From: Phycisphaerae bacterium
Lineage (GTDB): Bacteria > Planctomycetota > Phycisphaerae > UBA1845 > Fen-1342
Direction: 5' to 3'
Assembly: GCA_028279405.1 (NCBI GenBank)
Contig: JANQNU010000066.1
Span: 1 to 54,173 of the forward strand
Length of the DNA stretch: 54,173 nt
This document shows positions 21,724 through 38,531 of the stretch, piece after piece (within the stretch, counting starts at the first letter, position 1; each line of letters opens with the position of its first letter). A program made the translations under genes and the position numbers. The notes beneath the pieces are model-generated. The model had not been told where the DNA came from, searched no databases, and worked only from the letters and a program-made list of their open reading frames with translations.

Positions 21724-23295
21724 CTAGTTGGCGGATTCGCGAAGCATCGATTCGATCCGATCGAGCCGCGATTGCAGCGCGTCGTTCGCCGCCTGCAGCT
21801 CGGCGACCTGGCTGTCCTTCTCGGATCGCACCTGCTTGAGGGCCTGGACGAGCAACGGCGTGATCCGAGCGTAGTCGACGGCCAGGTAGCCCTCGTTGTC
21901 CTGTTGCACGAGTTCGGGGGCGATCTTGCGAACCTCTTGTGCGATCAGGCCCAACTGTCGATCGTCGGTGAACTTTCGATCGGGGAACGCTTCGCGCTTC
22001 CAGTCGTAGCGCACGGGGCGCAGCTTCTCGACCAGGCTCAGGGCGTCGCCGACCGGCTCGACCTTGGTCTTGAACCGCTGGTCCGAGCAGAGCAGCACGC
22101 CGCAGGAAGCCAGCATGTTGCCGCTGGCCTGGATGTTGCCGATGACATGCAGGGCCTGGCTGGGCGACGCGGTACCGATGCCGACGCGGCCGTTGGTGTG
22201 CACGCGCATCCGCTCGGTGAAGCCGCCGCTGCCGTCGTCGTGCCCGATCTCGAACGACCCACGGATGCCGGCGGTCGCCTGCACGCGGCCCCCGACGGCC
22301 ATGCCGAAGCCATAGAAGCCGTTCGGCGCCGGGCTTTGCCAGAAGGCGATCTTGGGTTCGTCGCGGTTGCGGAAGGTCAACGGGGCGCTGGCGCTGGTGG
22401 TGTTGATACCGACGTTTCCGTTGGCGGCAATCGTCATGCGCCGGGCGCCGTTGCTGTAGAACTCCAATGCGTCGTTGCTGGTCGTGTCGAAACCGGCTCC
22501 GAGGCCCGAGTTGATGCTGTTCATGGAGAATATGCCGAAGTCGTTCCCGACCGCGATATGACCGCCGACGACGTCGAGCTTGGAGTTGGTGATGACCGAT
22601 CCGGGGTTCACCGTGCCAATGCCGACCTTGTTGTTGTTCTGGAGCGTCATGGTGACGGCGCTGCCGCCGGCACTGGTTCCGTGTCCGATCAGCAGCTTGC
22701 CGGCGCCCTCGCTGTTCGCCGACCCGGTTGAGATCATGCGCCAGAACCGGCCGCCGGGCGATGCGTTGCCCAGGTTGAGCCAGGTACCGATCGTCGACGC
22801 AGACCGGAACATGGCCGTCAGTGCCGAGAGCGAGTCCGTTCCGGTGGTCTCCGCGTGAAACAGGTGACTGGGCGCGGCGGTGCCGATACCGACCTTGCCA
22901 CTGTCGTCGACATTCAATCCGCGCGTGTTCAGGGCAAAGGGCGTCGCCGTCAGGCGCTGCCGAGCCGAGAGCGGCGTGTCGTCGACGAGGACCTCCAGCC
23001 AGCGGTCGTCGTTCGCCGTATGCGGGGTCGTTCCGAAATCCAGCTCGACGGTGAACAGGCCGTCAACAACCTCGACGACGGCGAATGCCAGCGTCGGCCC
23101 CTGCTGCACGCCGCCGACCGGAGCGTCCCATAGCGAAAACTCCATCGCGACGTCGCCGTCGAATGCGGCTCCGTCGTTCATCAGGCGGCCCTGGTAGGTA
23201 ATGGCCGTCCCGCCCGCGACCGCCAACGAACTGCCGACGAGTGCGACCAAGATCGCGAAGACGGTGCAATACCTTGTAGTGTGTAACGATCTCAT
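21724..23295 (-). CDS. Secreted tail-fibre-like protein with S74 intramolecular chaperone domain
   Basis: A signal peptide (FAILVALVGSSLAVAGG) precedes an N-terminal domain with TYQGRLMNDGAAFDGDVAMEF and ending RQRLTATPFAL. The middle part has repeated VGIGT segments typical of trimeric beta-rich fibres. The C-terminus is a Peptidase S74 domain: CSDQRFKTKVEPV carries the S-D-x-R-x-K self-cleavage motif, followed by LRPVRYDWK, LGLIAQEVRKIAPELV and YARITPLLVQALK, then a coiled coil (about 490-523). In phage tailspikes this domain folds the trimer and then cuts itself off. At 523 residues it is complete. It has no virion neighbours and is divergent from an ECF sigma factor/kinase pair, so I read it as a cell-surface fibre, possibly controlled by that pair. 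Its N-terminal domain is shared with the protein at 32854-35016. Confidence 0.85.
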   Translation of the reverse strand: MRSLHTTRYCTVFAILVALVGSSLAVAGGTAITYQGRLMNDGAAFDGDVAMEFSLWDAPVGGVQQGPTLAFAVVEVVDGLFTVELDFGTTPHTANDDRWLEVLVDDTPLSARQRLTATPFALNTRGLNVDDSGKVGIGTAAPSHLFHAETTGTDSLSALTAMFRSASTIGTWLNLGNASPGGRFWRMISTGSANSEGAGKLLIGHGTSAGGSAVTMTLQNNNKVGIGTVNPGSVITNSKLDVVGGHIAVGNDFGIFSMNSINSGLGAGFDTTSNDALEFYSNGARRMTIAANGNVGINTTSASAPLTFRNRDEPKIAFWQSPAPNGFYGFGMAVGGRVQATAGIRGSFEIGHDDGSGGFTERMRVHTNGRVGIGTASPSQALHVIGNIQASGNMLASCGVLLCSDQRFKTKVEPVGDALSLVEKLRPVRYDWKREAFPDRKFTDDRQLGLIAQEVRKIAPELVQQDNEGYLAVDYARITPLLVQALKQVRSEKDSQVAELQAANDALQSRLDRIESMLRESAN

Positions 23296-23443
23296 GGACT
23301 ACTCTCCGATGCGAAGTGGCTAAGCGTCGAGATTATTCGGACCCGACGAGTCCGTTGCCGACACCCTCGGCACCTTCCCCAACGGAACGCGCTCGACGGA
23401 GGCGCAAAAGAAATCCGTCGAGCGGGCCAAATCGCCGATTCGC

Positions 23444-23449
23444 TATACT
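23444..23449 (+). promoter_or_regulatory. Probable -10 element of the ECF sigma/kinase operon
   Basis: TATACT lies 33 bases before the sigma-factor ATG at 23483, with GAGG before the start codon. No clear -35 box is visible at normal spacing. The 187-base region 23296-23482 separates this operon from the divergent fibre gene and otherwise holds no gene. Confidence 0.5.
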
Positions 23450-23482
23450 GTTGTAGGCTTTCGAGCTCGATGAGGATGGCAG

Positions 23483-24061
23483 ATGTCGGGTCAGTCCGAG
23501 ACGGCGGTTTCGCAACTTCTGGCGGCGTGGAACGAGGGCGACGATTCCGCGCCAGAACGCCTTATCCCTTTGGTGTATGAGGAGTTACGCGCATTGGCCG
23601 GCGTCCTGTTCCGGGACCAGCCACGGGGGCAAACGCTGCAGCCCACGGCACTGGTCCACGAGGCGTACCTACGACTGGCGGCCCAGACGACGCCTTCCTG
23701 GAACAATCGTCAGCACTTTCTACGAGTGGCGGCGAAGGCCATGCGACACCTGCTCACCGACGCCGCCCGTCGTCGACGAGCCTTGAAGCGCGGCGGCGAC
23801 AACGTCCAACTGACCCTCGACTCGGACCCGACGGCCGACACATCCTGCCTAACGGACGTACTCGCGTTGGATGACGCGATCTCGAAGCTCGCCGCCCTCG
23901 ATCCGCGCCAGGGTCAAATCGTCGAGCTGCGTTTTCTAGGCGGGCTGTCTGTTGACGAAACAGCGGAGATCCTGGGCGTCTCCCCCCGAACCGTGGAGCT
24001 GGACAGCCGACTGGCGCGCGCGTGGCTACAACGTGAACTGCGCGGAAAGGACAACGAGTGA
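23483..24061 (+). CDS. ECF-type RNA polymerase sigma factor (TIGR02999/Sigma70_ECF family)
   Basis: This 192-residue sigma factor directs RNA polymerase to a small regulon. Region 2 includes LIPLVYEELRALAGVLFRDQ and the family phrase TLQPTALVHEAYLRLAAQ; region 4 includes LAALDPRQGQIVELRFLGGL and VDETAEILGVSPRTVELDS as the helix-turn-helix. The ATG at 23483 has GAGG upstream. Its stop overlaps the kinase ATG (TGATG), so the two are coupled. No anti-sigma gene of classical form is adjacent; in Planctomycetota, ECF factors of this family are often linked to Ser/Thr kinases, which presumably control them. The divergent fibre gene is a plausible target, which is inferred. Confidence 0.92.
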   Translation: MSGQSETAVSQLLAAWNEGDDSAPERLIPLVYEELRALAGVLFRDQPRGQTLQPTALVHEAYLRLAAQTTPSWNNRQHFLRVAAKAMRHLLTDAARRRRALKRGGDNVQLTLDSDPTADTSCLTDVLALDDAISKLAALDPRQGQIVELRFLGGLSVDETAEILGVSPRTVELDSRLARAWLQRELRGKDNE

Positions 24062-26736
24062 TGAGTTCGCCGGACTTTCGACGCGTCCGCGACATTTTTC
24101 ACCGCGTATGCACGCTTGCCCAGCCAGAGCGCGCTGCGGCACTCGACGGGTTGTGTGCCGACGACGCCGTCCTGCGCGCCGAGGTCGAAGCGCTGCTTGC
24201 CGAAGACGGCGATGGTCGATCGGATGCTCCATTTCCACAAGCGGCGCTGGCTCGCGAACTCGTCGGCGGCCTTCCGCCCCACGCGAGCCCACTCCCGGCG
24301 CTCGGTGGAGAAGTCAGTGGACCGCTGATCGCACCGCCCCTTCCGAAGACGATCGGCCGCTACGAAATCATGGGTGTCCTCGGTGTCGGCGGGATGGGCG
24401 TGGTCTACGAGGCACGGCAGGATCGCCCGAATCGAACCGTCGCATTGAAAGTCATGCGCCCGGGGCTGGTCTCGCCGGAGATGCTTCGGCGATTCGAGCG
24501 GGAATCGGAGCTGTTGGCGCGGCTCCAGCATCCGGGCATCGCACAAATCTACGACGCCGGTACAGTAGCGACTGACGACGGCCCGCGACCCTACTTCGCG
24601 ATGGAACTGGTCCAGGGTGTGCCGCTCGATGATTTCGCGACGGCCAACGGGCTCGATAGCCGGTCGCGGCTGGCATTGTTTGCCGAGGTGTGCGACGCCG
24701 TGGAGCACGCTCATCAGCGTGGCATCATCCATCGCGACCTGAAGCCGGGCAACGTGCTTGTGGACGCGGACGGTAAGCCAAAGGTGCTGGACTTCGGAAT
24801 CGCGCGCGCCACGAACAGCGACCGACGCGCCACCACCCTGCACACGGAAGTCGGCCAGCTGATCGGAACCGTGCAGTACATGAGCCCTGAACAGGTAGCC
24901 GGTGCCTCCGAGCAGATCGACGCGCGGTCGGACGTCTACTCGCTCGGCGTGGTGTTGTACGAGTTGCTCGCCACCAGGCTTCCGTACGACGTACGGCAGC
25001 ATTCGTTGCCTGAAGCGCTTCGGGTCATCCGTGAGGACCCGCCCACGCAGCTCAGAATGGTCAACTCCCGCCTTCGCGGCGACGTCGAGACGATCGTCGA
25101 CAAGGCGCTCGAAAAGGACCCGCAACGACGATACGCTTCGGTCCGCGAGCTGGCGGCGGACATCCGTCGGTTTCTGACGGACCAGCCGATCGTTGCGCGT
25201 CCGCCGAGCGCGATCTATCAGTTGAAGAAGTTTGCCCGACGCCACAAGGCGTTCGCCGCTGCAAGCGTTGCGATCGTCATGGCCATGGTCGGAATCATGG
25301 CCATACTGTCGGTCGCTGCCGTGCGCTCCGAACGCGCGCGGGCGGAGGTACAACGACAAGCTGATGTTGCCGAGGCTGTGGTCCGGTTCCTCAACGACGA
25401 TTTGTTGTCCGCCGTTGCCCCGAGCGCGTCAGGCGTCGCCGGCCGGGGACGGGACGTTCAGATGTCGGAGGTGCTCGCCGAGGCGGCGCGCCGAATCGAC
25501 TCAGCGGCAGCGCCGGGCGGCAAGTTCGCTGACAAGCCGGAGATCGAGGCGGCGATCCGCGGGACGTTGGGCCGGACCCTGATGCGGCTCGGCGATACCG
25601 ATGCCGCGTATCCGCACATGGCCAGGGCGCATGAGTTGCGCCAAGCTCTCCTCGGTGAGGGGCATGCCGACACAATCTCCGCGGCGACCAATCTCGGAGG
25701 AATCCTCTTCGTACAAGGAAACCTCGACGCCGCCGAAGACGTCCTCGAGCGCGCGCTGCAGGTCGGTCGCGAACACCTGGGTCCGGAGCATCCGCGCGTC
25801 CTGACGTGTGAGGTGAGTGTTTCCAACATCTTCTGGAAGCAGGAACGGTTCAACGAAGCGCTGGAACTGCTGGAGCATGCGCTGGACGCGCGCCGCCGAA
25901 CGCTGGGGCCGGACCATGCGGACACGAGCGCCACCTTGCAGAACATCGCACTCGTCTACAAGCGGCTACGACGCTACGAGGAGGCCGAGCCGCTCGAGCG
26001 CGACCTGCTGGAACAGAACCAGCGTGCGCTTGGCGCGGATCACCCGAACACCTTGCGGGTGCAGAACAATCTCGGAACGACGCTTTACTATCAGGGCCGC
26101 TACGAAGATGCCGAACAGGTGTGGCGCGACGTGCTCGAGAAACGCCGACGGGTCCTCGGCCCCGATCACTATGAAACACTCTCGTCGTGCATCAACCTCG
26201 GATCGGTGCTGGTCGAGCAGGACCGGCCGGCGGACGCCGAGCCGATCTATCGCGCGGGTTATGCCGCCGCAGTCGAACGCTACGGCGAAGCACATGGCAA
26301 ATCGCGAGGCTTCGCGTTCGGCTTGGCCAATGCACTCCGCGACCAGCGACGTTTCGACGAGGCCGAACCGCTATACACGCAGACCATTCAACGGAACGAA
26401 GCAGCGGACGGACTTACGGCGCGCGAGACGATCCAGGTGATCATCGGCCTTTTCGATATGCGGATGATGCAAGGTCGCAAAGAGGAAGCCGAACAAGTGC
26501 TAACGCGGGCTCTGGACGCTCTTCAGTCGGCCGGCAAGCTTGCCGAGAACGGCCGCAGCGTCGAGCCGTTGATCGCATGTCGAAGGGAGCTCGGCATGCA
26601 GCGCGAAGCATTGGACTTGGCACGAGCCTACGCGGAAGCGGTGCGGGCTGCGCGCGGCCCCGAGTCGGACGCCGCCCAGCGCGTGAACGCGCTGCTCGAA
26701 CAGCTCGAGCATCCGGCGGATAGCAACACCGACTGA
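24061..26736 (+). CDS. Transmembrane Ser/Thr protein kinase with extracytoplasmic TPR domain
   Basis: This 891-residue kinase has an N-terminal helical segment (about 1-60) of the type found in planctomycete STPKs. The kinase domain (about 99-375) is complete: GVGGMGVVY glycine loop, VALK lysine at about 130, HRDLKPGN with Asp at about 226, DFG Asp at about 244, and MSPEQ at the end of the activation segment. A transmembrane helix follows at about 397-420 (VAIVMAMVGIMAILSV). The outer part has at least six kinesin-light-chain-type TPRs of 42 residues, with phrases such as LGPEHPRVL and LGADHPNTL, suited to protein binding. I chose the ATG at 24061, which overlaps the sigma stop; a GTG one codon earlier is in frame. 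The TPR domain may sense an extracytoplasmic protein, with output through the sigma factor; both are inferred. Confidence 0.92.
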   Translation: MSSPDFRRVRDIFHRVCTLAQPERAAALDGLCADDAVLRAEVEALLAEDGDGRSDAPFPQAALARELVGGLPPHASPLPALGGEVSGPLIAPPLPKTIGRYEIMGVLGVGGMGVVYEARQDRPNRTVALKVMRPGLVSPEMLRRFERESELLARLQHPGIAQIYDAGTVATDDGPRPYFAMELVQGVPLDDFATANGLDSRSRLALFAEVCDAVEHAHQRGIIHRDLKPGNVLVDADGKPKVLDFGIARATNSDRRATTLHTEVGQLIGTVQYMSPEQVAGASEQIDARSDVYSLGVVLYELLATRLPYDVRQHSLPEALRVIREDPPTQLRMVNSRLRGDVETIVDKALEKDPQRRYASVRELAADIRRFLTDQPIVARPPSAIYQLKKFARRHKAFAAASVAIVMAMVGIMAILSVAAVRSERARAEVQRQADVAEAVVRFLNDDLLSAVAPSASGVAGRGRDVQMSEVLAEAARRIDSAAAPGGKFADKPEIEAAIRGTLGRTLMRLGDTDAAYPHMARAHELRQALLGEGHADTISAATNLGGILFVQGNLDAAEDVLERALQVGREHLGPEHPRVLTCEVSVSNIFWKQERFNEALELLEHALDARRRTLGPDHADTSATLQNIALVYKRLRRYEEAEPLERDLLEQNQRALGADHPNTLRVQNNLGTTLYYQGRYEDAEQVWRDVLEKRRRVLGPDHYETLSSCINLGSVLVEQDRPADAEPIYRAGYAAAVERYGEAHGKSRGFAFGLANALRDQRRFDEAEPLYTQTIQRNEAADGLTARETIQVIIGLFDMRMMQGRKEEAEQVLTRALDALQSAGKLAENGRSVEPLIACRRELGMQREALDLARAYAEAVRAARGPESDAAQRVNALLEQLEHPADSNTD

Positions 26737-26772
26737 CCGACTACCAGAAAATCGAGCAGGAAAGAATCGCGA

Positions 26773-26802
26773 GACGCCGGCCCGGTTCGCTGCTCCGGCG
26801 TC
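26773..26802. other. Inverted repeat between convergent genes
   Basis: GACGCCGG (26773-26780) and CCGGCGTC (26795-26802) form an 8-bp perfect stem with a 14-base loop, between the kinase stop and the convergent ASPIC-domain gene. No T tract follows on either strand, so it is at best a weak or Rho-assisted end point. Confidence 0.4.
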
Positions 26803-26874
26803 CCACGGGAAGATGGCAAGTTGTCATGAACGCCACCAAACGCGGCGGACGACACGCCCGGTAGCCCGTTCCTC

Positions 26875-28755
26875 CTAGTCTTCGCAGAGACGATAGGCAT
26901 CCGCGAATTGTTCGAAGTCGGCTCGGTCGAGTTGACCGTCGCCGTTGAAGTCGGCTGTGGGCCGGCCCGCGGCAAACGCCGCTGCAAACACCTGCAGATC
27001 CTGATCGTTGACCGCACCGTCGCCATCCAGATCGGTCCGCCGGAGCACAAGGGTCTGGTTCGCGGACAGCTTCAGCTCGGTGACCGAGCCGTTGGGCCAT
27101 TCCACGAGCAAGTCGACCTTGGACTCGCCGGCAAGTCCGAAGTGCGCGGACAGCTCGCTGTGACTAACATGGTTGCTTCCGCCGTCGATGACCCGCACCA
27201 TCGGGCCGCTCGTGGCCGTCCGTGCGGTCAGGCGCACACCGAACCCGTCCGGCGCAAGGTCGTCGATCTGGCAGGTATCGATCAGCACGCGCAAGTAGGT
27301 CGCGCGCGCGAACGAACTCGATTTGTTCGCCCAAAGCGTGGCGGGTCCATTGACGTGGAACACGACTACGTCCTGATCGCCGTCGTTGTCGACGTCCAGA
27401 TTGACGATGCCGCGGCCCAGCTCCGGCTGGCGCGGGTCGTCGAATGCCTCGAGACAATCGCGCGCGAACCGGCCGTCTTCATTGCGGAAGTAATAAGAAG
27501 GGTCGGCACAGTGCTCTTCGCACGGATCGTCGGGATCGCAAGGCGGTTGGCCGAAGTTGAGCCGGCCGTTGGTCTGCACGACGTCGAGATCGCCGTCGTG
27601 ATCGGCATCGATGGAGACCATTCCCCAACCCCAGCCGCCGTCATCCAGGTTACGCTCGTCTGCCTGCTCAACGAGCTGCTTGTCGCAATCCCGGCAGGGC
27701 GCGACGTCGATCCACAGCCGATTCCCGACACGGCTTTCGTTGCACGCACAACCGCGCTGCGGCGTGTCGAGACAATCATCGAAGATGCCACTCAATACCC
27801 AATCGAGTTGTCCATCGCCATCGTAGTCGCCGACCGTACTTCCCGCGGCCACTCCCTGCGGGTCGAACCCGCAGACATTGGGTGCTGCACCGGGCGCCGC
27901 GCAAGTGGCCGGGAACGAATCCAGGAACACGCGCTCGGTGCCGGCACCGGCGTTGATCAGAAACCGGCTATTCCCGAACGCTGCGAGCAGCAACTCGGGA
28001 TAACGATCACCCGTCATGTCCACGAACCGCGGCGCGAAACCGAACTCGAGGTCCAGCTGCCGATTCACCTCGAGTAACGAGCTGACCTCATCGAACCGCG
28101 CGGCCGCTCGCGAGTAGCGAAACAGCCGTGCGCCGTCCACGAAGTTAGTGATCACCAGGTCCAAGTCGCCATCGAGATCGAAGTCGCCGAAAGCACTGCC
28201 TTGTGCTCCGAGGATCAGTGGATTGCCGCCAGTGCCGTCTCCCGCGATGCCGAAACGGTGCGCCTGCTCGGAGAACCGGGGCTGACCTCCCCCACCAGCA
28301 CCCTGGTTTACGTAAAGGAAGTTCACTGCCGGGCCATCGGGGCCGCCGAGGCTGGTCACGTATATGTCCAGCCAACCGTCTCCGTTGACGTCCGCCACCG
28401 ACGCGCCGACACCCCAATGCACCAGCGGATTGATACCGGCCTGTAATGCGACGTCGACGAAGGCGCCGGCCTGCGTGTTGAGATATAGCTTGTCGGGCCT
28501 CGCCCCGCATCCGAGCACATACAGATCTTGCCAGCCGTCCCGATTGAAGTCGCCCGCCACTCCGCCGGCGCTGTACTCGAACGCGGGATCGAGGCCGGCC
28601 GACTGGGGCCGAAAACACCCCGGCGGGTCATCCCGAAATGCCTCAGCAGTCGCATCGACGAACGGATGCTCGCCGCGGCACGGCTCGTCCGCTATCACCG
28701 ATAGCGGAAATGCAAGATTGCACACGATCAAGAGTGTCACAGAACCATTGCGCAT
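26875..28755 (-). CDS. Secreted FG-GAP/VCBS repeat protein with ASPIC/UnbV and dockerin domains
   Basis: A signal peptide (VTLLIVCNLAFPLSVIADE) leads into a propeller of FG-GAP/VCBS repeats with calcium-loop cores such as GDFNRDGWQDLYV, ADVNGDGWLDIYV, GDFDLDGDLDLVI, GDYDGDGQLDWVL and LDVDNDGDQDVVV. Next is an ASPIC/UnbV domain (GVRLTARTATSGPMVRV, HFGLAGESKVDLLVEWPNG) as in CRTAC1-like proteins. The last 60 residues are a two-loop dockerin type I (TDLDGDGAVNDQDLQ and ADFNGDGQLDRADFE) ending in CED. Several Cys pairs suggest disulfides. At 626 residues it is complete. It acts outside the cell, probably in carbohydrate or protein adhesion; the ligand is unknown. It is divergent, across 355 bases, from the kinase at 29111. 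Confidence 0.87.
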   Translation of the reverse strand: MRNGSVTLLIVCNLAFPLSVIADEPCRGEHPFVDATAEAFRDDPPGCFRPQSAGLDPAFEYSAGGVAGDFNRDGWQDLYVLGCGARPDKLYLNTQAGAFVDVALQAGINPLVHWGVGASVADVNGDGWLDIYVTSLGGPDGPAVNFLYVNQGAGGGGQPRFSEQAHRFGIAGDGTGGNPLILGAQGSAFGDFDLDGDLDLVITNFVDGARLFRYSRAAARFDEVSSLLEVNRQLDLEFGFAPRFVDMTGDRYPELLLAAFGNSRFLINAGAGTERVFLDSFPATCAAPGAAPNVCGFDPQGVAAGSTVGDYDGDGQLDWVLSGIFDDCLDTPQRGCACNESRVGNRLWIDVAPCRDCDKQLVEQADERNLDDGGWGWGMVSIDADHDGDLDVVQTNGRLNFGQPPCDPDDPCEEHCADPSYYFRNEDGRFARDCLEAFDDPRQPELGRGIVNLDVDNDGDQDVVVFHVNGPATLWANKSSSFARATYLRVLIDTCQIDDLAPDGFGVRLTARTATSGPMVRVIDGGSNHVSHSELSAHFGLAGESKVDLLVEWPNGSVTELKLSANQTLVLRRTDLDGDGAVNDQDLQVFAAAFAAGRPTADFNGDGQLDRADFEQFADAYRLCED

Positions 28756-29110
28756 GCTTCGTTTCCTTTTTGCTTTGGTAGTAACCCCACGATTGTCTAC
28801 CGGAACAATCGCATCCCATCAGCATCACCAGCACAGCGGCGCGCACCCCGACCCCGGGCCATCGCGACCGCAACAAGCCAACAAGTTTGCCCCGGCCGTA
28901 CGCTCCCCACCGACGCGACCGCGTCGCGTGTGATCTCCTGCGCGTCGCCGTCCGTTTCGTTCAAGGCGTCCGCTCTTTATTGAAATAAAACACCGATCGG
29001 GCTTGATTGGCGGGCGCGATTCAAAAAAAATATCGCCATCTCTGGACAAGTGCCGCCGTCGACGAATCCACGTGCCATCTGTGCGCACATTACTACCGCT
29101 GGAGAGAGGT
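28756..29110. promoter_or_regulatory. Divergent intergenic region between the ASPIC-domain gene and kinase
   Basis: No gene is supported here. The stretch 28976-29035 is AT-rich compared with its surroundings and contains TTGATT (29003-29008) followed after 18 bases by AAAATA, a weak promoter candidate for the kinase. A frame from 29003 would extend the kinase by 36 residues, but the Shine-Dalgarno-like GGAGAGAGG before 29111 argues against using it. Confidence 0.4.
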
Positions 29111-32002
29111 ATGAGTTGTTTCCTTTCGTCCTTGCAGCTGTGGAGTTGGTTGGATCGAGCGGCACCGGAACTCGACCACCACATCGCCGAATGCGCCCCG
29201 TGCCGACGTGCGGCGTCGCTGTTCCGACAGCAAATGGAGACGCTCTCGAACGAGGTGGGCAACCATGCGGGCGTTCCGGAGTCGATCGGCCCCTATCGCA
29301 TCGTCAAGCTGATCGGGCGCGGCGGGATGGGACTGGTCTATCGCGCCGTCCAGCCCGCCACCGAACAGCACGTCGCGGTCAAGGTCATGTGGGGAGCACT
29401 CGACGGACAGCAGCAATTCGTGCGTTCCTTCGAGCGCGAGGTGCGAGCGTTGGGTCGAATGAACCACCCGAACATCGCGCGTGTGCTCGAGAGCGGTTGC
29501 ACGCCAAGCGGTCAGCGCTACATCGCGATGGAGTTGATTGAGGGGACGCCGATTCACCTTTACGCGCAACACCAATCGCCGACGCGCACGGTGCTACTGC
29601 GGCACTTCCGCGATATCTGCGACGCGATCGCCCACGCCCACGACCGGGGCGTGCTCCATCGCGACATCAAGCCGTCCAACATCATGATTGACGCGCGCGG
29701 CACGGCGCGCGTACTCGATTTCGGACTGGCACGGCTCTCCGCCGACCCGCACAACCAGAACGGGTACAGTACGACGACGTCAATCCCGTTGCTGGGAACG
29801 CTTCCCTACATCAGTCCTGAACAGTTCGAACGTCGCGGCGCACAGCTCTCGATGCAAAGCGACGTCTATTCACTCGGCGTGGTGCTCTACGAGTTGATGA
29901 CCGGCCGATTGCCCTTCGCGCCCGGTCAATCACACCGGGCGGTGCTGAACGCCATCTGTCGCGGCGACTGGGTGCGACCGCGGATTGCGGCGGCGACGAT
30001 TGACCACGACCTGGCGATGATCATCGAAACCGCACTCGAGAATGACCCGCAACGACGTTATGCCTCGGCGGCGAAACTCCGCGACGACGTTACTCGCTAC
30101 CTTGCATCCGAGCCGATCGAAGCTCGCGCCCCGAGCGCCGTCTACGCCGTCAGCAAAGCGGTTCAGCGCCACCGGCGGGCCCTGTGTGCAACGGTCGTTG
30201 TCGCGCTCATGCTGCTCGTAGGCTCGATCGTCAGCACGACGATGTTCCTGCGCGCCCGACGTGCCGAACAGCTGGCCGTTACACGCCTTGGAGCACTCAA
30301 GGTCGCACGCGATACGGCCGTAGCGGAATCGGAACGGTCGCAGACCGAGGCTCGCAAGGCGCGAGCGCTCAGCAACACGTTGGCGCACATTTTCGATCTC
30401 ACCCATCCACTGGGTTATAAGCCCAATCGACTCACGCACGACGCACTGGCCATCCAGATCGCATCACTCGTGGACGAAGAGTTGGGCGAGCATCCGTTGC
30501 TGGCGGCCGATCTATACGCGGCGATCGGCCGGAGCTTCCCGAACCACTTCAAGACCGATCTTGCCAAACAGTTCCTCGTGCGAGCGCTGACGCTGGTGAA
30601 ACAACACTCTCCGGATTCTGCGGCCATTGGGCGCCGTCTGCTCGAGCTTGGCGAACTCTGTTTTGATGACTACCTGTACGCCGAGGCCATCCGCTATTGC
30701 GAACAAGCCATCGCGTGCTACAGCAAGGACGCTGCCGGCAACGAGCAAGCACTAACCCTGGCGAAAGGTCTTTACGGCGCAAGCTTGATGGCCGCCGGCC
30801 GTGTCACGGAAGGACAAGTCTTCCTGCAGTTCGCACTCGAACAACTGCGTGACCGTCAAGTCGATTCAGGCGACTTCGCCTTGCTTCTCGAACGGGCTGC
30901 ATTTGGCTATGGACTTGCAGGCCGACCACAGAAAGCGTACTTGCTCATGGCCGAGGCGGTTGCGCTGGATCGGCGAACGGGGAGGTCAGCGGATCTCGCA
31001 ATCCGGCTCACGCGTTTGGCGTTGATGGCCCGACAGATCGGTCGCCAACAAGAGGCCGAAGAGTATCTGGCACAGGCATTGGAAGCCAGCGACGACCTGA
31101 TCGGACGCACCTATCCGGCGTTGGCCCATCAGCTCGCCCAGCTCGCTGATCTGGCTGTCGACCGAGACGATCTCGACCGTGCCGCGGCGTGGGCCCGGCG
31201 GGCAGCCGGAATGGTCCGCAATCTCCGACCGGAACACGGGACGGCAGCACCGCTCGACAGCAAACTCGCTGGCTTGGCCTGGATTCGCGGCGACTATGAT
31301 GAAGCCGTAGAGCGCTATCAGGATGTGACCGATGAAGCGCTCGTTGAATGGGGCCCCGACTCCGACCTTTACCTTGGCTGCCTCACGACGATGGGGGTCG
31401 TCCTGCGCGACAAAGGTGACTTCGTGCAGGCCGAATCGCTGCTTCGCCACGTCTACGAACAAAGGGTTGCCATGCACGGTCGCGAGCACTACCGGATGGC
31501 CCGAATCACAAACAATCTGGCGCGACTGTTACTGCTCAAGGGTGATCTGGAGGAAGCCGAATCCTTGATCTGCCGGGCGCTACGAAGCCGGTCGGAGCAG
31601 CTGGGCCCGGATCATCCGGACGTCGCCGAGTCGCGGATGGTGCTCGGAATGATTCTGACCCGCCAAGGGCAACTCGCCGCGGCGCACGAGCACCTGCAAC
31701 GCGCCCTCGCGATCCGTGAGCGCTACTATCCGCATGATCACTTCTGGGTTGCCGAGGCAAGGTCCGCCCACGGCGAATGGCTCGTAGCGACCGGGCAGTG
31801 TGCCGAGGGCCGTCTGGTTCTCGAGGCGGCATTGCAGGCGCTGCGATCGGCGGTGCGCGAATCGCATCGATATATCATCATGACCAAGGACCGTCTGGCG
31901 GTCGCGGATCGCTGCCTCATCCAATCTTCCGCGGCGCTGCGTCCGGTAGCGAAAGCGAATGGTCGTACGTCCCGAGTCGCGAGTAAACGGAGCGCCGAAT
32001 GA
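29111..32002 (+). CDS. Ser/Thr protein kinase with N-terminal anti-sigma-like zinc motif and TPR tail
   Basis: This 963-residue kinase starts at the ATG at 29111, with GGAG six bases upstream. Its first 40 residues contain H24-x3-C28-x2-C31 (HIAECAPC) preceded by Cys3, the ligand pattern of the zinc-binding anti-sigma (ZAS) domain. The kinase domain (about 60-330) has GRGGMGLVY, VAVK with Lys at about 91, LHRDIKPSN with Asp near 184, DFG, and ISPEQF. A transmembrane helix lies at about 357-380 (ATVVVALMLLVGSIVSTTMF), followed by about 570 residues of TPR-like helices such as RMARITNNLARLLLLKGDLEEAESL. Its stop overlaps the start of an ECF sigma gene (ATGA), the opposite order from the other two pairs here. 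A ZAS motif joined to a kinase suggests direct sigma binding controlled by phosphorylation; this is inferred. Confidence 0.9.
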   Translation: MSCFLSSLQLWSWLDRAAPELDHHIAECAPCRRAASLFRQQMETLSNEVGNHAGVPESIGPYRIVKLIGRGGMGLVYRAVQPATEQHVAVKVMWGALDGQQQFVRSFEREVRALGRMNHPNIARVLESGCTPSGQRYIAMELIEGTPIHLYAQHQSPTRTVLLRHFRDICDAIAHAHDRGVLHRDIKPSNIMIDARGTARVLDFGLARLSADPHNQNGYSTTTSIPLLGTLPYISPEQFERRGAQLSMQSDVYSLGVVLYELMTGRLPFAPGQSHRAVLNAICRGDWVRPRIAAATIDHDLAMIIETALENDPQRRYASAAKLRDDVTRYLASEPIEARAPSAVYAVSKAVQRHRRALCATVVVALMLLVGSIVSTTMFLRARRAEQLAVTRLGALKVARDTAVAESERSQTEARKARALSNTLAHIFDLTHPLGYKPNRLTHDALAIQIASLVDEELGEHPLLAADLYAAIGRSFPNHFKTDLAKQFLVRALTLVKQHSPDSAAIGRRLLELGELCFDDYLYAEAIRYCEQAIACYSKDAAGNEQALTLAKGLYGASLMAAGRVTEGQVFLQFALEQLRDRQVDSGDFALLLERAAFGYGLAGRPQKAYLLMAEAVALDRRTGRSADLAIRLTRLALMARQIGRQQEAEEYLAQALEASDDLIGRTYPALAHQLAQLADLAVDRDDLDRAAAWARRAAGMVRNLRPEHGTAAPLDSKLAGLAWIRGDYDEAVERYQDVTDEALVEWGPDSDLYLGCLTTMGVVLRDKGDFVQAESLLRHVYEQRVAMHGREHYRMARITNNLARLLLLKGDLEEAESLICRALRSRSEQLGPDHPDVAESRMVLGMILTRQGQLAAAHEHLQRALAIRERYYPHDHFWVAEARSAHGEWLVATGQCAEGRLVLEAALQALRSAVRESHRYIIMTKDRLAVADRCLIQSSAALRPVAKANGRTSRVASKRSAE

Positions 32003-32565
32003 CGATGCAACACGGCAAGCGCGAACCGGCCAATCCCGACCACCAGCCAACCGCCACTGACATCGGGAGACGTGAGGCCGAGGCGCTGCAATCGGAACAC
32101 GCGAACGCGCTCTACGCGTATTGCTTCCTCTTTTTGGCAAACGCCGAGGCGGCCCGCGATGCCGCGCAGGAAGTCTTCTGCCGGCTGTGGACACATTGCG
32201 ACGCGGACCGGCTGGCGAATCGGGCATGGCTGTACAAGACGGCCCGCAACCACTGCCTCAACACCCTGCGCCAGGGCAGCCGCGGTTCCCGCGCGCTGGC
32301 GGCACATGCGCAACTGCGCGCACACCGGCGCGGCGCCCCCTCGATCCTGGCCCAGATCGTGCGCGAAGAAATCCACCAACGGCTTGCGGACCTGGTCAAC
32401 GAACTCCCGATCGAACTGCGCGTACCGTTGTTCCTCCGCTACTTCGCGGGCCTCAGCCGTTCCGAGATCGTCGACGTACTCGGCGTGTCCGAACACGTCG
32501 TGAAGGCGCGGCTCCACTCCGCGTTGAAGTGCCTCCGACGCCACTCCTCGCTGCGCATGACGTGA
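31999..32565 (+). CDS. ECF-type RNA polymerase sigma factor, downstream of its kinase
   Basis: This 188-residue sigma factor has region 2 at about 30-95 (LYAYCFLFLANAEAARDAAQEVFCRLW, WLYKTARNHCLNTLR) and region 4 at about 120-180 (VNELPIELRVPLFLRYFAGLS, then SEIVDVLGVSEHVVKARLHSALK as helix-turn-helix). It lacks the TLQPTALVHEAYLRL phrase of the other two sigma factors in the window and so belongs to a different ECF group, closer to classical RpoE-like factors. Those are typically held by ZAS anti-sigma factors, which matches the zinc motif at the start of the upstream kinase. The ATG lies in an ATGA overlap with the kinase stop, so the two are made together. Confidence 0.9.
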   Translation: MTMQHGKREPANPDHQPTATDIGRREAEALQSEHANALYAYCFLFLANAEAARDAAQEVFCRLWTHCDADRLANRAWLYKTARNHCLNTLRQGSRGSRALAAHAQLRAHRRGAPSILAQIVREEIHQRLADLVNELPIELRVPLFLRYFAGLSRSEIVDVLGVSEHVVKARLHSALKCLRRHSSLRMT

Positions 32566-32639
32566 GCAATGAATGAGCGGGCGATGAACCGCGCCAGCAA
32601 AGCCCGTCCCGGCAACGATCGCCTCCCGGTAACTCCGAC

Positions 32640-32667: not shown

Positions 32668-32853
32668 CCGTGTGAACACGCCTTAATACAAATTATTTTA
32701 GAATATGGTGGCACGATTCTAGAGATGCGGCATTGGGCCGTGGCCTATTCCGGGGCATAGGCGGGCGCCAACAGCAGCACAGCGCCAAGCACGGCGCTCC
32801 GACGCCGGCTCTGCCGCATTGTTGTCTCCGTTTCGGCGCAATCGCCAGACCTG

Positions 32854-35016
32854 CTATTGCAGACTCACCAGCACCAGGACCAGTCCCTCGCGATTCCCTC
32901 CGCCTATACCTTCCCCTTCTCCCACATCGAGCCCTGTCATGGCCTTGCCGATCGTCGCACCAAACGCGCGCTCGCGGTCGGTGGCCTTCATGGCGTACCC
33001 GGGAATCGCGGACGTCGTCAGCATGTCGCCCGGGCGGACCGGACCGTTGGCGGTAGTCGCCCGCACGTACACACGCCCCGTCAACGCCACTGGATGCGTG
33101 CCATCGGCAACGGTCCCTTTCTGCCCCATCAGCATGCCGGGATCGACGCCGCCGGCACCGCTGACAACGCCGGCCACCGTGGGATCGTATTCGCTGTTGC
33201 TGACGACGAGTTTGCCCGGACTCGACGGGTCGATGCAGACGACCATCCCGGGTCGGACCGCTGCGCCGTTGATGTCGAATCGCTCCGAGAGATCGCTACC
33301 CCCTGTGATATCAATTTCTTCGGTCGTCGTGCGGCCATTGACGTGCAGCTTGGACGACGGGAAATTCGTACCGATCCCGACATTGGCGGCGGGCGTAATG
33401 GAAAAGACGTTGCCGGAGCCGGCACGGTAGATGTTGAAGACGCCGGGCAACGAAGAGCTGGGTCCGCCTGCGCTCAGCTGGTACTCGTTGCCGCCGGCTT
33501 CGAGCGATAGCCGGGCGAAGTCGGTATCGTCCGTCTGCGTGATCTGTACATTGGGTAGTGCGTCGGAGGCGACGTGCAGGGTCGCGTCGGGGGTAGATGT
33601 GCCAATCCCGACATAGCCATTCTGCGGAATCGAGACCATGTTGCCCACGCCGGGCCGGTAGATGTTGAACGTATGCGGCGACGACGATCCCGGCGAGCCG
33701 ACGTTGAGTTGAACGGTGCTGCCGTTGCCGTCCAGCATCAGTCGAGCAAAATCGGTGTTGTCCGTCTGGGTGACTCTCACGTTCGGGAACGCATCGGAGA
33801 CAACGTGCAGGGTAGCCTGCGGACTTGCAGTCCCGACGCCGACATCTCCCTTGACGATCAGATCGTTCTTACCCGGGTCGGCGTAACCATAGTTGTCGGC
33901 GACGAGGACGCCGCCGGCCTTGAGCCCTGAGGCGGAAGCAAGATCGGGAGAGTTGAGCAAGAGCAGATGTCGGGATTGATCGCCTCCGGATGCGGCCGTG
34001 AACAGCTGCGCACGCGCGCCATCGTCGAGCACCATAGAACCCCGAACATCCAATCGTGCAGCCGGGCTCGTCGTACCGATGCCGACGTCGCCGCCCGCGG
34101 TAACACTCGCCCGTGGCGCACCGGCGGCGTAAAGGTGCAACTCGTCCGAAACCGTGGTGTCCACCCCTGCGCCGATGCCGTCGTTGCTGCCGTTGAAGCT
34201 GAAGAAACCGTAGTTGTTGCTGACGGCAACGTGACCGCCGATCACATCGAGCTTGGAGTTGAAGACGCTGCCAGGTGCGGAGGTTCCCAGCCCGAGCGCG
34301 CCGTTATCGAGCAATCGCAGTTTGACGGAATCGCCGATCCCGTGGATGGCGAACCCGTTATGATTGCCCGGGCCGCTGCCGCCGTAGCGGATGCGGGGCA
34401 CGTTGTTATGCCAGCTCAGGGTCGCCGAAGCGCTCATGTTGTCGGGGTTCGGAACGCTGAAGCTTGCAGCGCGCGCGACACCCTCGACATGCAGCGGGGC
34501 AAGCGGTGAATCGGTCCCGATCCCGACACTACCGGCGTCGTAGTACAGGTTCGCGCCGTTGGAACCCCAGGGTGTGCTGCCCGTGGGCGCATTGAGTGCG
34601 TAGAGCGCATAGGGTGCCGTGGTGAGCAGTTGCCGAGGCGACAAGACCTCGTAGGGAGCGGCGTCCGACGGGTCATGCGGGCTGCGAACCTCCACCCGCA
34701 GCCAGCGCGCGTTGCCGTCGAAAGCGGCTACGCCAAAATCAAGCTCAACGGTGATCAGCCCGTCGATGATATCAACCGGCGGGTCATTCCCGAGCTGTCC
34801 GTCGAAGACGACTGTTGTCCCCAACGTGCAGCCGGCCGCTTCACTCTCACACAGCGTGAACCGTAGATCGACACTGTCGTTGACGGGCGCGCCCGACTCG
34901 AGCAATCGCCCTTGATAGGTCCAACCGGTACCGAGTGGCACCTGGCCCAGAACTGCACCGGACATGACAAGGACGGCGGGCAGGATTGTCCAACTTTCGA
35001 AGCGCTTCGTTTGCAC
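32854..35016 (-). CDS. Secreted tail-fibre-like VGIGT-repeat protein
   Basis: This 720-residue protein has a signal peptide (ILPAVLVMSGAVLGQ) and the same N-terminal domain as the S74 protein at 21724-23295 (TYQGRLLESGAPVNDSVDLRF, ending APYALYAL). The middle is a run of fibre-like repeats around VGIGT (VGIGTDSPLAPLHV, VGIGTTSPAARLDV, VGVGTASPQATLHV, VGIGTSTPDATLHV), including a near-duplicate segment (LPNVQITQTDDTDFARLSL and FPNVRVTQTDNTDFARLML). The C-terminus differs: in place of S74 there is a beta-rich domain (RPGMVVCIDPSSPGKLVVS, VAGVVSGAGGV, GRVYVRATTANGPVRPGDML). The start is a GTG with AAGGAG upstream. It is divergent, across 138 bases, from the third sigma/kinase pair. A surface or appendage role is inferred. 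Confidence 0.82.
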   Translation of the reverse strand: MQTKRFESWTILPAVLVMSGAVLGQVPLGTGWTYQGRLLESGAPVNDSVDLRFTLCESEAAGCTLGTTVVFDGQLGNDPPVDIIDGLITVELDFGVAAFDGNARWLRVEVRSPHDPSDAAPYEVLSPRQLLTTAPYALYALNAPTGSTPWGSNGANLYYDAGSVGIGTDSPLAPLHVEGVARAASFSVPNPDNMSASATLSWHNNVPRIRYGGSGPGNHNGFAIHGIGDSVKLRLLDNGALGLGTSAPGSVFNSKLDVIGGHVAVSNNYGFFSFNGSNDGIGAGVDTTVSDELHLYAAGAPRASVTAGGDVGIGTTSPAARLDVRGSMVLDDGARAQLFTAASGGDQSRHLLLLNSPDLASASGLKAGGVLVADNYGYADPGKNDLIVKGDVGVGTASPQATLHVVSDAFPNVRVTQTDNTDFARLMLDGNGSTVQLNVGSPGSSSPHTFNIYRPGVGNMVSIPQNGYVGIGTSTPDATLHVASDALPNVQITQTDDTDFARLSLEAGGNEYQLSAGGPSSSLPGVFNIYRAGSGNVFSITPAANVGIGTNFPSSKLHVNGRTTTEEIDITGGSDLSERFDINGAAVRPGMVVCIDPSSPGKLVVSNSEYDPTVAGVVSGAGGVDPGMLMGQKGTVADGTHPVALTGRVYVRATTANGPVRPGDMLTTSAIPGYAMKATDRERAFGATIGKAMTGLDVGEGEGIGGGNREGLVLVLVSLQ

Positions 35017-35154
35017 CAGAGACTCCTTTGCACAGACATCGGTGGTTCTGCTACCATTGAGAGCGGCGGCACGCGGCGAACCGCCCTACCATCACTAGCA
35101 GATTCCGCCGCCCGATGTCGTCACGGCATCTCCACCTTTCTTCCGGGAACCACC

Positions 35155-35745
35155 GTGGACGCTCAACCGCGGGATGAACTCACGCAAGTTCACGCCGACC
35201 TCAGTGGCGCAACGAATGAATCCGTACTGACGGCATTGCTGCCTCTCGTGTATCCGGAATTGCGGCGTGTGGCGGATGCCTACCTGCGCGGCGAGCGCGC
35301 GGATCATACGCTCCAACCCACCGCGCTCGTGCACGAAGCGTACCTGCGACTGGCGGACAGCGACCTTCAAATCAACGACCGCAAGCACTTCTATCGGACC
35401 GCCGCAATGGTGATGCGCCGGATCCTGGTCAATCACGCGATCGAGCGCCGGGCCCAAAAACGTGGCGGCGGAATCAAAGCCTTGCCGTTATCGGAAGTTA
35501 CGGTCGCCTGGCCGGACCAGGAGATCGACCTCGTCGCCTTGGACGAGGCGCTCCGCGAACTGATCCAACTAAACGAACAGATCGGCCGCGTGGTGGAACT
35601 CCGTTTCTTCGGCGGTTGTACGATCGCCGAAACAGCGGAGATTCTCGGAATCTCACCCAAGAGCGTCGAGCGCCACTGGACGTTCGCCCGCGCCTGGTTG
35701 CGCGCCAAACTCGAAGATCAGCCGCATCATTCGAACGAATCATGA
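35155..35745 (+). CDS. ECF-type RNA polymerase sigma factor (TIGR02999/Sigma70_ECF family)
   Basis: This is a close relative of the sigma factor at 23483. Region 2 has LLPLVYPELRRVADAYLRGE and the family phrase TLQPTALVHEAYLRLADS; region 4 has VVELRFFGGCTIAETAEILG and ISPKSVERHWTFARAWLR. I start at the GTG at 35155, with GGGA upstream, giving 196 residues; a frame from 34912 would overlap the divergent fibre gene and adds no conserved sequence. The kinase gene follows after 86 bases, without overlap, so coupling is looser than in the other pairs. The divergent fibre-like gene starts 138 bases away and is a candidate target. Confidence 0.9.
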   Translation: MDAQPRDELTQVHADLSGATNESVLTALLPLVYPELRRVADAYLRGERADHTLQPTALVHEAYLRLADSDLQINDRKHFYRTAAMVMRRILVNHAIERRAQKRGGGIKALPLSEVTVAWPDQEIDLVALDEALRELIQLNEQIGRVVELRFFGGCTIAETAEILGISPKSVERHWTFARAWLRAKLEDQPHHSNES

Positions 35746-35831
35746 CGCAGGTTTCACGATAATCCTGCTTATCCTGATGAAGCGGCGAATTCGCGCAGCG
35801 GCTCACTCAGAGACGCACGACAGGAATGCAG

Positions 35832-38531
35832 ATGGGCCCGAACGAAACCCACGACAAGCAGGCGTTTCAGCGTCTCGAAACGCTGTTCCATGCGGCACTG
35901 GAGCAGCCGGCGGACGAGCGGACGACCTTCCTCGACGAAGCGTGTGGTGCAAACGAGACACTACGGCGCGAGTTGGACCGACTGCTCACCGGTCACGACG
36001 GCTCGAGCCACTTCATGAGCGAACCGGTCTGGGGCCTGGAGGTCAGGATCCCCACGCCGGAATCGCTCGAAACCGACCTTCACCCCGGTGATCGCGTAGG
36101 GCAATATCGTCTTGCACAGCCTCTGGGCGCCGGCGGCATGGGAGCGATCTGGCTGGCCGAACGCAACGACGAGCAGTTTCGACATCAGGTTGCACTGAAG
36201 ATCATCAAGCGCGGCATGGATACCGACGAGATCCTTCGGCGCTTTCGTCGGGAACGACAGGTTCTGGCAGGGCTCGCGCATCCGAACATCGCTCGGCTGC
36301 TCGATGGAGGAGCGACCGACGACGGCCGACCGTTCTTCGTGATGGAGTACGTCGAAGGACTCCGGATCGATCAACACTGCGACCGAATGAAGCTCGATCA
36401 CCGGCACCGGATCCAGCTCTTCTTACAAGTCTGTTCAGCCGTCCGGTATGCACACCAACGGCTGATCATCCACCGCGACCTGAAGCCAGGCAACATTCTC
36501 ATATCGCGCGACGGCGTGCCCAAGCTGCTCGACTTCGGGATCGCAAAAGTCCTGCGGGCGGACGACGATGCCGACACTGTCAGCCAGACTGCACCACAAA
36601 GGCACATCCTGACGCCGCGATATGCCAGTCCCGAGCAGATTCGGGGCACGGGTGTCACGACAGCCAGCGACGTATACTCGCTCGGTGTCGTGCTCCACGA
36701 ACTCCTGACCGGACAAGCACCGTACCGCCTGTCCGGATCGTCGCGAAACGAAATCGAGCGCGCCGTCCTGAACATCGATCCGATTCGCCCATCCGCGATC
36801 CGGGCCGGTCTCAACCCGGAATTGGATGCCATCGTGCTCAAGGCACTCGCCAAGGACAGTGCGGACCGATATCCGTCGGTGGATGCCCTGGCCGCAGATC
36901 TGGAACGGTATCTTGCAGGCGCGCCGGTGCAGGCACACCCGCCGAGCACGCTTTACCAACTCGGCAAGCTCATCAAGCAACACCGGCTGCCCTTCGCCTT
37001 TGTGACGACCGTGTTTGGGCTCGTGCTGGCGTTCGCACTCGTGGCCGGGATCCTCGCGTTTCGACTCGACAAGGAACAAGCCGCAGCCGAGCGGCGCTTC
37101 GGCGAGGTGCGCGGCCTGGCCCAGAAAATGATCTACGACCTGCACGACTCCATCCTTCCCGTCGAAGGCACGCTGGCCGCGCGGGAGTTGATCGTCGAAA
37201 CGGGCTTGCATTACCTCGATGCGCTGGCGCAGGAGGCAGGCGACGACCGCACCCTACAACTTGAATGTGCACTGGGGTACTTTCGCATCGCGGAGATTCA
37301 AGGCGGCTCGATCGGCGAGAGCATGGGGCAAACAGAAGCGGCCCTGGAGGCCTGTCGAAAGGGACTGGCGATCGTTAATCAGCGACTGGCAGCCGACCCG
37401 GACAAGGGACCGTTGCTGCGCGGTTCGGCATTCGGAAATCTGCTGATGGGCCACCTGCTGGGCGTGATCGGCGATACGGCACAGGCAGAGAACAGCTTCG
37501 AGCGGGCCATTGCATTGCAGCGACGGGTCGTGGCCAGCGACCCTGCGGAAGGCTGGAAGCACCCCGGCCTGGACAAGATTCACGCTGACTTCGCCACGTT
37601 CCTGGAAGGAATGGGCCGATACGATGCTGCGGAACGACACCTCGAACACGCCATCCGATTCATCGAGGAGCGCCTGAAACTGGAATCGGACAACGCGCTC
37701 TTCGAGGTCAAGCTAGGAAACGCCCTGGCGGCGCTGGGACACAATCGCGTTCAACGAGGTGCCTTCGAAGCGGCGCGGCAACCGCTGGAGTCGGCCATCG
37801 GCCTGCTCCAGGATGCGACAGCGGTTCCGCACGAGAATGCGAACCGATGGCGCAGCCTGATCGTGGCCAAGACCGCCCTGGGGCGCGTATGCGCGGCGGC
37901 GGGAGATTCCAGCGGTGCGCAAGTCGCATTCGAGTGGGCAATCGCCGAGCACAATGCAATGATCGCAGCCGACCCGACTGACGTTACGGCACGGCGCGAC
38001 CTTTCGGCGGCGCATCTTTTTCTCGGCAAGCTGCTCGAAGACGGCGGCGGCACTGATGCGGCGCTGGTCCAGTATCGGAAGATGCTCGAGATCCGCAGAC
38101 AGCTGGCAAACGCCGATCCGGCCTCAGCCGCGGCCAAACGGGGCCTGGCCGTCGCACTGGATACGACCGGCGCAACGTTACGACAACTTGGCCGCCTGGA
38201 CGATGCCATGGAGCTCAATCTGGCAGCCAACGCAATCTTCGGGGAACTCGCTGCCAACGATCCGGACAACCCGCGCCACCAGCGCAGCTTAGCCATCTCG
38301 GCTTTCTTCCTGGGCAAGCTGCATACCGAGTTGGCACAGGATGCGCGTGGGTCCGCTCAACGAGAAGATCGTTTGCGCTCCGCGCTGGGGTACTTTCGCG
38401 AGTCGAGCGAGATCATGGTCCGCATGCGGGATGCGGACCTGCTCCTCGCGCACGAAGGCGACGTCATCGAGATGCTGGCAAACGAGATCGACTCATGTGA
38501 GTCAGCGCTCGACGAGCCCCGGCCCGACTGA
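35832..38531 (+). CDS. Transmembrane Ser/Thr protein kinase with TPR-like tail
   Basis: This 899-residue kinase has an N-terminal helical segment (FQRLETLFHAALEQPADERTTF) like that of the kinase at 24061. The kinase domain (about 90-360) has GAGGMGAIW, VALK with Lys at about 122, HRDLKPGN with Asp near 216, DFGIAK and ASPEQI. A transmembrane helix follows at about 388-410 (VTTVFGLVLAFALVAGILAF), then about 490 residues of helical, TPR-like repeats of a more divergent kind than in the other two kinases, with QLGRLDDAMEL as a recognisable unit. Two ATGs are close; AGGA is better spaced for the one at 35832 than for 35826. It follows an ECF sigma factor on the same strand and ends 6 bases from the convergent kbl gene. 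Confidence 0.9.
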   Translation: MGPNETHDKQAFQRLETLFHAALEQPADERTTFLDEACGANETLRRELDRLLTGHDGSSHFMSEPVWGLEVRIPTPESLETDLHPGDRVGQYRLAQPLGAGGMGAIWLAERNDEQFRHQVALKIIKRGMDTDEILRRFRRERQVLAGLAHPNIARLLDGGATDDGRPFFVMEYVEGLRIDQHCDRMKLDHRHRIQLFLQVCSAVRYAHQRLIIHRDLKPGNILISRDGVPKLLDFGIAKVLRADDDADTVSQTAPQRHILTPRYASPEQIRGTGVTTASDVYSLGVVLHELLTGQAPYRLSGSSRNEIERAVLNIDPIRPSAIRAGLNPELDAIVLKALAKDSADRYPSVDALAADLERYLAGAPVQAHPPSTLYQLGKLIKQHRLPFAFVTTVFGLVLAFALVAGILAFRLDKEQAAAERRFGEVRGLAQKMIYDLHDSILPVEGTLAARELIVETGLHYLDALAQEAGDDRTLQLECALGYFRIAEIQGGSIGESMGQTEAALEACRKGLAIVNQRLAADPDKGPLLRGSAFGNLLMGHLLGVIGDTAQAENSFERAIALQRRVVASDPAEGWKHPGLDKIHADFATFLEGMGRYDAAERHLEHAIRFIEERLKLESDNALFEVKLGNALAALGHNRVQRGAFEAARQPLESAIGLLQDATAVPHENANRWRSLIVAKTALGRVCAAAGDSSGAQVAFEWAIAEHNAMIAADPTDVTARRDLSAAHLFLGKLLEDGGGTDAALVQYRKMLEIRRQLANADPASAAAKRGLAVALDTTGATLRQLGRLDDAMELNLAANAIFGELAANDPDNPRHQRSLAISAFFLGKLHTELAQDARGSAQREDRLRSALGYFRESSEIMVRMRDADLLLAHEGDVIEMLANEIDSCESALDEPRPD

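Follow-up and report, generated by a model that had tools for sequence, protein, structure and literature searches.

In the stretch of DNA that was analysed (the window, 54,173 nt), three gene pairs for an ECF sigma factor and a Ser/Thr kinase each stand head-to-head with a gene for a secreted protein, and the question raised by this locus is whether such a layout is a unit of regulation, in which the sigma factor reads the gene of the exported protein that faces its own.

Genes and parts of the three modules

All nine genes of the three units are present and intact, and the preliminary description of them as sigma/kinase pairs with complete kinase cores, each divergent from a protein with a signal peptide, was confirmed. 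Regarding module 1, the target is a secreted S74 fibre protein encoded on the minus strand (21724..23295); it has a signal peptide, a YQGRL N-domain (~22846-23220), three VGIGT repeats and, near its C-terminus, a Peptidase_S74 domain (PF13884; 21907-22086) detected by Pfam with an E-value of 1.2e-15 and 58 bits versus a cut-off of 22. The divergent spacer of 187 bp (23296..23482) leads to the ECF sigma gene on the plus strand (23483..24061), a member of TIGR02999/PF07638 in which a QPTA motif with Thr55 (codon 23645-23647) replaces the acidic DxxD, and then to the kinase gene on the same strand (24058..26736), whose product consists of a PknS-like N-terminal three-helix segment, the kinase domain, one TM helix and a TPR ectodomain.

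In module 3, the target on the minus strand (32854..35016) is a secreted fibre protein with a YQGRL N-domain (34567-34941) and VGIGT repeats, in which the Pfam search found neither S74 nor any other domain; the fibres of modules 1 and 3 both have tail-fibre matches in PHROGs, and both N-domains fall in the A1/A3 family. Beyond a spacer of 138 bp (35017..35154), the plus strand carries a TIGR02999/PF07638 sigma with a GTG start (35155..35745) and a QPTA motif with Thr56 (codon 35320-35322), followed by a kinase (35826..38531) with the PknS-like N-terminal segment, the kinase domain, a TM helix and the TPR ectodomain.

As for module 2, its target (26875..28755, minus strand) is a secreted FG-GAP/ASPIC protein with a signal peptide, FG-GAP_3 (5e-26) and UnbV_ASPIC (2.5e-9) matches in Pfam, and a C-terminal GC-type dockerin (NF041540, 7e-8); the spacer measures 355 bp (28756..29110), and on the plus strand the kinase (29111..32002), with an N-terminal HIAECAPC motif (Hx3Cx2C, 29180-29203), kinase domain, TM helix and TPRs, precedes the sigma factor (31999..32565), which is of the Sigma70_r2 plus r4_2 type and not TIGR02999. 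Pfam E-values for Pkinase are 1e-46, 2e-45 and 7e-46 in modules 1, 2 and 3, with core motifs HRDLKPGN..DFG, HRDIKPSN..DFG and HRDLKPGN..DFG, respectively, and TPR repeats in all three kinases; those for Sigma70_ECF (PF07638) are 3e-56 in module 1 and 1e-48 in module 3, and Sigma70_r2/r4_2 is matched in module 2. The signal peptides of the three targets were called with a home-made rule. The idea of one arrangement occurring three times thus stands for the divergent layout, while module 2 differs in its sigma class, in its kinase-sigma order and in its HxxxCxxC kinase.

The TIGR02999 model gives 215 and 191 bits for the sigmas in modules 1 and 3 (cut-off 126), and both have QPTA in region 2.2, where ordinary ECFs have the acidic DxxD; the Thr of this motif (Thr55) is invariant in 30/30 aligned TIGR02999-type sigmas. 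The ECF43 consensus at this place is QTTA, and the same Thr is the phosphosite (PMC13147305). The kinases of modules 1 and 3 carry a conserved N-terminal segment, modelled as three helices (the helices are confident; the whole model has a pLDDT of 72), and a profile of these segments gave one strong PDB match, to 9eed residues 7-95, with E=1.6e-14. This entry, named just "Kinase domain protein", is taken to be the structure of Xanthomonas citri PknS 1-364 (PMC13147305), with which its length of 364 residues fits. The three-helix model had no Foldseek match of weight, and a possible anti-sigma-like role of the modelled segment was considered. PknS has the same layout as the kinases of modules 1 and 3, and its periplasmic TPR part appears to restrain the kinase (PMC13147305). 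By family, Thr motif and kinase layout, modules 1 and 3 are putative ECF43-type (EcfP/EcfK) pairs, and they could also belong to ECF59, ECF61, ECF62 or ECF217; the comparison with Vibrio EcfP/PknT, drawn earlier for the whole locus, is apt for these two modules, with their QPTA motif and PknS-like segment, and not for module 2.

Indeed, module 2 has neither the TIGR02999 match nor the Thr motif, and its region 2.2 reads AEAARDAAQEVF, with one acidic residue retained. The N-terminus of its kinase carries the Hx3Cx2C signature, which is the criterion for zinc class I anti-sigma domains (ASDI; PMC7406223), and the motif occurs in 8 of the 20 own-genome kinases paired with non-TIGR02999 ECFs, module 2 included. 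A close twin of this N-terminus is found in another kinase of the genome (L024:7792-10830), with an ECF sigma match directly downstream. Judged from sequence, these two loci may represent a design in which an anti-sigma domain is fused to a kinase and followed by its ECF sigma.

Recurrence of the layout and its exported targets

The genome (5.6 Mb in 92 contigs), that of a planctomycete to judge from its closest named relatives, has 87 Pkinase matches and about 44 strong PF07638 sigmas, versus 13-31 kinases and 3-7 such sigmas in each of eight genomes from the same family but from other genera. In one family member (G007), the sigma, kinase and target of one module show 100% identity to those of the uncultured planctomycete isolate PLA1. 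Almost every kinase neighbourhood of the own genome was fetched, together with 13 random stretches, and the background consists of the fetched regions, namely the kinase-rich ones, the 13 random stretches and those with YQGRL genes; gene calls and signal peptides followed home-made rules, identical for modules and background, and the signal-peptide rule in its lenient form is positive in 68/69 YQGRL proteins and in 3/240 kinases and sigmas. The relatives of other genera were sampled by sigma only, and the wider set comprises 80 loci from the GTDB collection; the pooled independent loci are those of the other genera plus the GTDB loci from Planctomycetota, Acidobacteriota and others.

The preliminary description had predicted an enrichment of secreted divergent neighbours beside ECF-kinase pairs, and this was strongly borne out. 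The upstream neighbour of TIGR02999-type pairs in the own genome is divergent in 31/38 cases versus 260/847 (31%) of the background (p=4e-10), and 29 of these 31 neighbours are secreted under the lenient rule, versus 108/260 (42%; p=1e-8). The difference holds with the strict signal-peptide rule (23/31 vs 74/260, p=1e-6) and after matching for spacer length (27/28 vs 93/228, p=4e-9); it is confined to this side, the downstream neighbours (17/37 secreted) being at background level, and the divergent neighbours of kinases without a sigma (6/12) are at background level too. In the pooled independent loci, 68/87 neighbours are divergent (vs 250/786, p=9e-17), and 46 of the 68 are secreted (vs 103/250, p=1e-4). 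Among these, the relatives of other genera have 25/30 divergent neighbours (p=1.5e-8), 18/25 of them secreted by the lenient rule (p=0.03), an enrichment that is weak under the strict one (12/25 vs 33/107, p=0.16); the neighbour is divergent in 13/16 Planctomycetota loci of the GTDB set, with 8 of these secreted, and in 26/36 Acidobacteriota loci, with 17 secreted. The recurrence of the layout is not due to chance. For the class of module 2, that is, the non-TIGR02999 ECF pairs of the own genome, an upstream neighbour in divergent orientation is not significantly more frequent than in the background (10/20, p=0.085), and eight of the 10 divergent proteins are secreted (p=0.02).

Regarding the nature of the targets, 14 of the 31 divergent ones share the N-terminal YQGRL domain (~115 residues), followed by fibre repeats and often by S74, which occurs at 21 places in the genome; further targets are beta-helix, collagen, TIG, HYR, LVIVD, dockerin and PEP-CTERM proteins. 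The YQGRL family has 52 strong copies in this genome and 0-8 in related ones, it was found in 4/199 genomes sampled from the phylum, and it has expanded together with the modules (55 and 43 here, versus 0-8 and 0-7 in relatives). A TIGR02999 sigma is found no more than 1.5 kb away from 15 of the 52 YQGRL genes, where about 1 would be expected, and a YQGRL protein is the divergent partner in 6/25 divergent pairs of relatives and in 4/13 divergent Planctomycetota pairs of the wider GTDB set. The domain is modelled as a beta-sandwich (pLDDT 85) that gave no confident structural match: the best Foldseek E-value was 0.016, and the best VIA match, to a DUF3823 protein, had a Z of 6.7 over 87 residues at 3.6 Å.

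At five loci (L013, L031, L042, L050 and L103), two or three co-oriented YQGRL fibre genes lead away from one divergent sigma/kinase module, in arrays that are like a fibre repertoire; an alternative arrangement of the same parts is seen at L057:3767-7112 and L001, where three YQGRL genes are on the same strand as a kinase with no sigma nearby. YQGRL genes also lie at or near the ends of contigs C1, C2, C31, C48, C50, C57, C58 and C89, which probably means that the family disrupts the assembly and has more members than were counted.

Promoters in the divergent spacers

The sigma-facing strand of the spacers has a strong motif near the sigma start, gGcTAtAATGg, with a log-likelihood ratio of 62 versus 33-41 in control sets, and this is the sigma70-type -10 element of the sigma/kinase side. 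Accepting at most one mismatch to TATAAT, with A2 and T6 fixed, within the 150 nt that precede the gene, such an element is found in the own modules on 19/28 sigma-facing strands and on 1/28 target-facing ones, versus 83/202 (41%) ordinary divergent genes; ordinary control genes for secreted proteins are normal in this respect (34/78). Sigma side, target side and controls give 14/21, 2/21 and 32/72 in the relatives, 4/14, 0/14 and 5/20 in other Planctomycetota, and 20/32, 6/32 and 22/74 in Acidobacteriota, where the target deficit alone is not significant (p=0.17); pooling these independent sets, the figures are 38/67, 8/67 and 59/166, with the target side below controls at p=1.5e-4. The loosest form of the element, TAnnnT, behaves in the same direction in the four taxon sets: in the own modules it is present on 27/28 sigma-facing and 6/28 target-facing strands, and its target-side counts of 6/28, 9/21, 4/14 and 18/32 (own, relatives, Planctomycetota and Acidobacteriota) are each significant versus controls of 75-81%. 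Other ECF classes of this genome have the -10 on 6/10 sigma-facing and 0/10 target-facing strands.

Since the target side lacks a sigma70-type -10 and the sigma side has one, transcription of the surface gene most likely requires the ECF sigma next to it; to judge from these elements, the surface gene is probably not a sigma70 gene, and the switch operon probably is. The asymmetry is consistent with a switch that is produced all the time and turned on post-translationally. Housekeeping promoters alone in the spacers had been named beforehand as an outcome that would speak against a link between sigma factor and surface gene, and what was seen is the opposite. In the window itself, the spacer of module 1 has a sigma-facing sigma70-type -10 (TATACT, 23444-23449), and a one-mismatch form (AATAAT) also faces the target, the sole such case within 150 nt among the 28 own modules; in the other two spacers, those of modules 2 and 3, neither strand has a sigma70-type -10, even with one mismatch allowed.

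As for the shared promoter motif suggested for the divergent spacers, none was found facing the targets: EM searches with different motif widths gave nothing above controls, and the generic ECF -35/-10 consensus AAC-N-CGT/GTC was not enriched. The recognition-helix positions of region 4.2 are highly variable between paralogues, with 2-3.4 bits at several positions, and therefore each pair may have its own promoter. Single cases of pairwise footprints are suggestive: module 1 and a related module (L082) share ATTTnGCGCC followed by CGTTGGG, and L103 and L151 share GATTGTCGCGTTTCTGAACGG. A relation between helix similarity and spacer similarity, apparent at first (p=0.004), was gone after near-duplicate pairs were left out (r=0.025, p=0.15). 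The spacers of TIGR02999-type modules also contain an A-tract element (AAAAATCGC-like) in both orientations and with no fixed spacing, which is enriched in the own genome (22/28 vs 15/91) and in relatives (9/19 vs 3/33).

A proposed display circuit and its alternatives

Modules 1 and 3 probably represent two copies of a repeatedly occurring circuit of three genes, in which a phospho-activated ECF sigma reads the divergent gene of an exported protein, and module 2 would reach the same output by another route. The sigma/kinase operon would be read from its ordinary sigma70-type promoter, so that the switch is present but off, because the ECF sigma has Thr (QPTA) instead of the acidic residues of region 2.2. 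On a signal, the membrane-spanning kinase with its TPR ectodomain would phosphorylate this Thr, as PknT does on EcfP and PknS on EcfK; by the same analogy, the phosphorylated sigma would bind RNA polymerase, and the holoenzyme would transcribe the gene opposite, which encodes one exported surface protein, and sometimes further fibre genes behind it. In module 2, the N-terminal zinc anti-sigma motif of the kinase would hold the sigma factor until signalling. More tentatively, and with considerable doubt, these pairs may act across Planctomycetota and Acidobacteriota as private, insulated display switches, each with a promoter specificity of its own, a single divergent exported protein under its control, and feedback from this protein, or from what it binds, on the TPR ectodomain; dozens of copies would then offer a choice of surface fibres like an adhesin-switching repertoire.

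The same layout could arise from a founding locus duplicated many times as a cassette, with no regulatory link between its parts and another factor transcribing the surface gene. Such an origin is in line with the massive lineage-specific expansion in this genus and with the weak correlation of sigma and YQGRL distances within the genome (r=0.29, p=0.018); however, these distances are uncorrelated across genera (r=0.04, p=0.37), and the layout is also kept where the targets are unrelated (beta-helix, collagen, HYR, LVIVD and others) and in Acidobacteriota. A constant arrangement with exchanged components points to a functional link more than to simple co-duplication, and, with an effect limited to the promoter-side neighbour and a target side without a housekeeping -10, duplication alone is an unlikely explanation.

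Improbable, too, is that the secreted protein is mainly an input, as an extracellular sensor or ligand of the kinase ectodomain in the manner of FecA acting on FecR, with the main regulon of the sigma elsewhere. The TPR ectodomains bind proteins and differ greatly from module to module (22% identity, versus 45% for the sigma and 51% for the kinase), and the periplasmic part of PknS appears to restrain its kinase (PMC13147305), as this reading would have it; yet a target without a housekeeping promoter is more readily explained as an output than as a sensor made constitutively, and TPR and YQGRL divergence are uncorrelated (r=0.004, p=0.46). The two roles of the surface protein, output and input, could also be combined in a loop. 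Finally, the divergent gene may be read by another alternative sigma, or from a weak, activator-dependent promoter, the adjacent ECF sigma being a bystander: this would agree with the searches, in which no common ECF-type promoter was found on the target side, and with the enriched A-tract element of variable spacing and orientation, but the same asymmetry and adjacency occur in many taxa, and for other ECF classes here, which speaks for the adjacent sigma, and little probability is given to it.

As for the known systems, FecA-FecR-FecI has the same three-part logic as the circuit proposed here, with a surface protein, a membrane transducer and an ECF sigma; FecR is not a kinase, and FecA is a TonB-dependent receptor, whereas the targets here are fibres and other repeat proteins. 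The ECF sigma adjoins a Hanks-type kinase, as here, in EcfP/PknT of Vibrio parahaemolyticus and in EcfK/PknS of X. citri, of the ECF43 group; the DxxD of region 2.2 is replaced by QTTA in EcfP and EcfK and by QPTA here, and kinases of the PknT/PknS type likewise have an N-terminal segment of 80-90 aa, a single TM helix and TPRs in the periplasm (PMC13147305). The literature examined describes control of a T6SS by EcfK and of a polymyxin-resistance regulon by EcfP, and mentions no divergent surface-protein partner; unlike these, the genome analysed here has about 40 paralogous pairs, the majority of them opposite an exported protein of their own. In the planctomycete groups ECF59, ECF61, ECF62 and ECF217, to which some modules here may belong, the ECF sigma also lies next to an STPK and control by phosphorylation has been proposed (PMC8999054), with no target or third gene described in the reviews examined. 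SigI/RsgI of Clostridium thermocellum works alike: many paralogous pairs of a sigma and a membrane sensor, all in one genome, control extracellular cellulosome genes, but the transducer RsgI is an anti-sigma factor released by proteolysis, and not a kinase as here (PMC4711584, PMC12203970). The STPK-linked ECF pair was already known; for the additional partner, an exported gene in divergent orientation that lacks a housekeeping -10 and occurs ~30 times in one genome and also in other phyla, no description was found in the open-access literature searched.

Targets are not known for very many of the kinases and ECF sigmas that planctomycetes and acidobacteria possess. Should each pair read the exported gene that adjoins it, the targets of much of this orphan signalling could be read from the genome map, and the inputs could be tested pair by pair; phospho-activated sigmas would gain a general role in surface display beyond the Vibrio and Xanthomonas cases, as a widespread means of switching individual surface proteins, and the expansion of fibre families together with their regulators would be explained.

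Beyond module 3, the window also holds a tandem pair of paralogues (39916-41235 and 41326-42663), each starting with a hydrophobic helix and a CPxCEYNLA motif.
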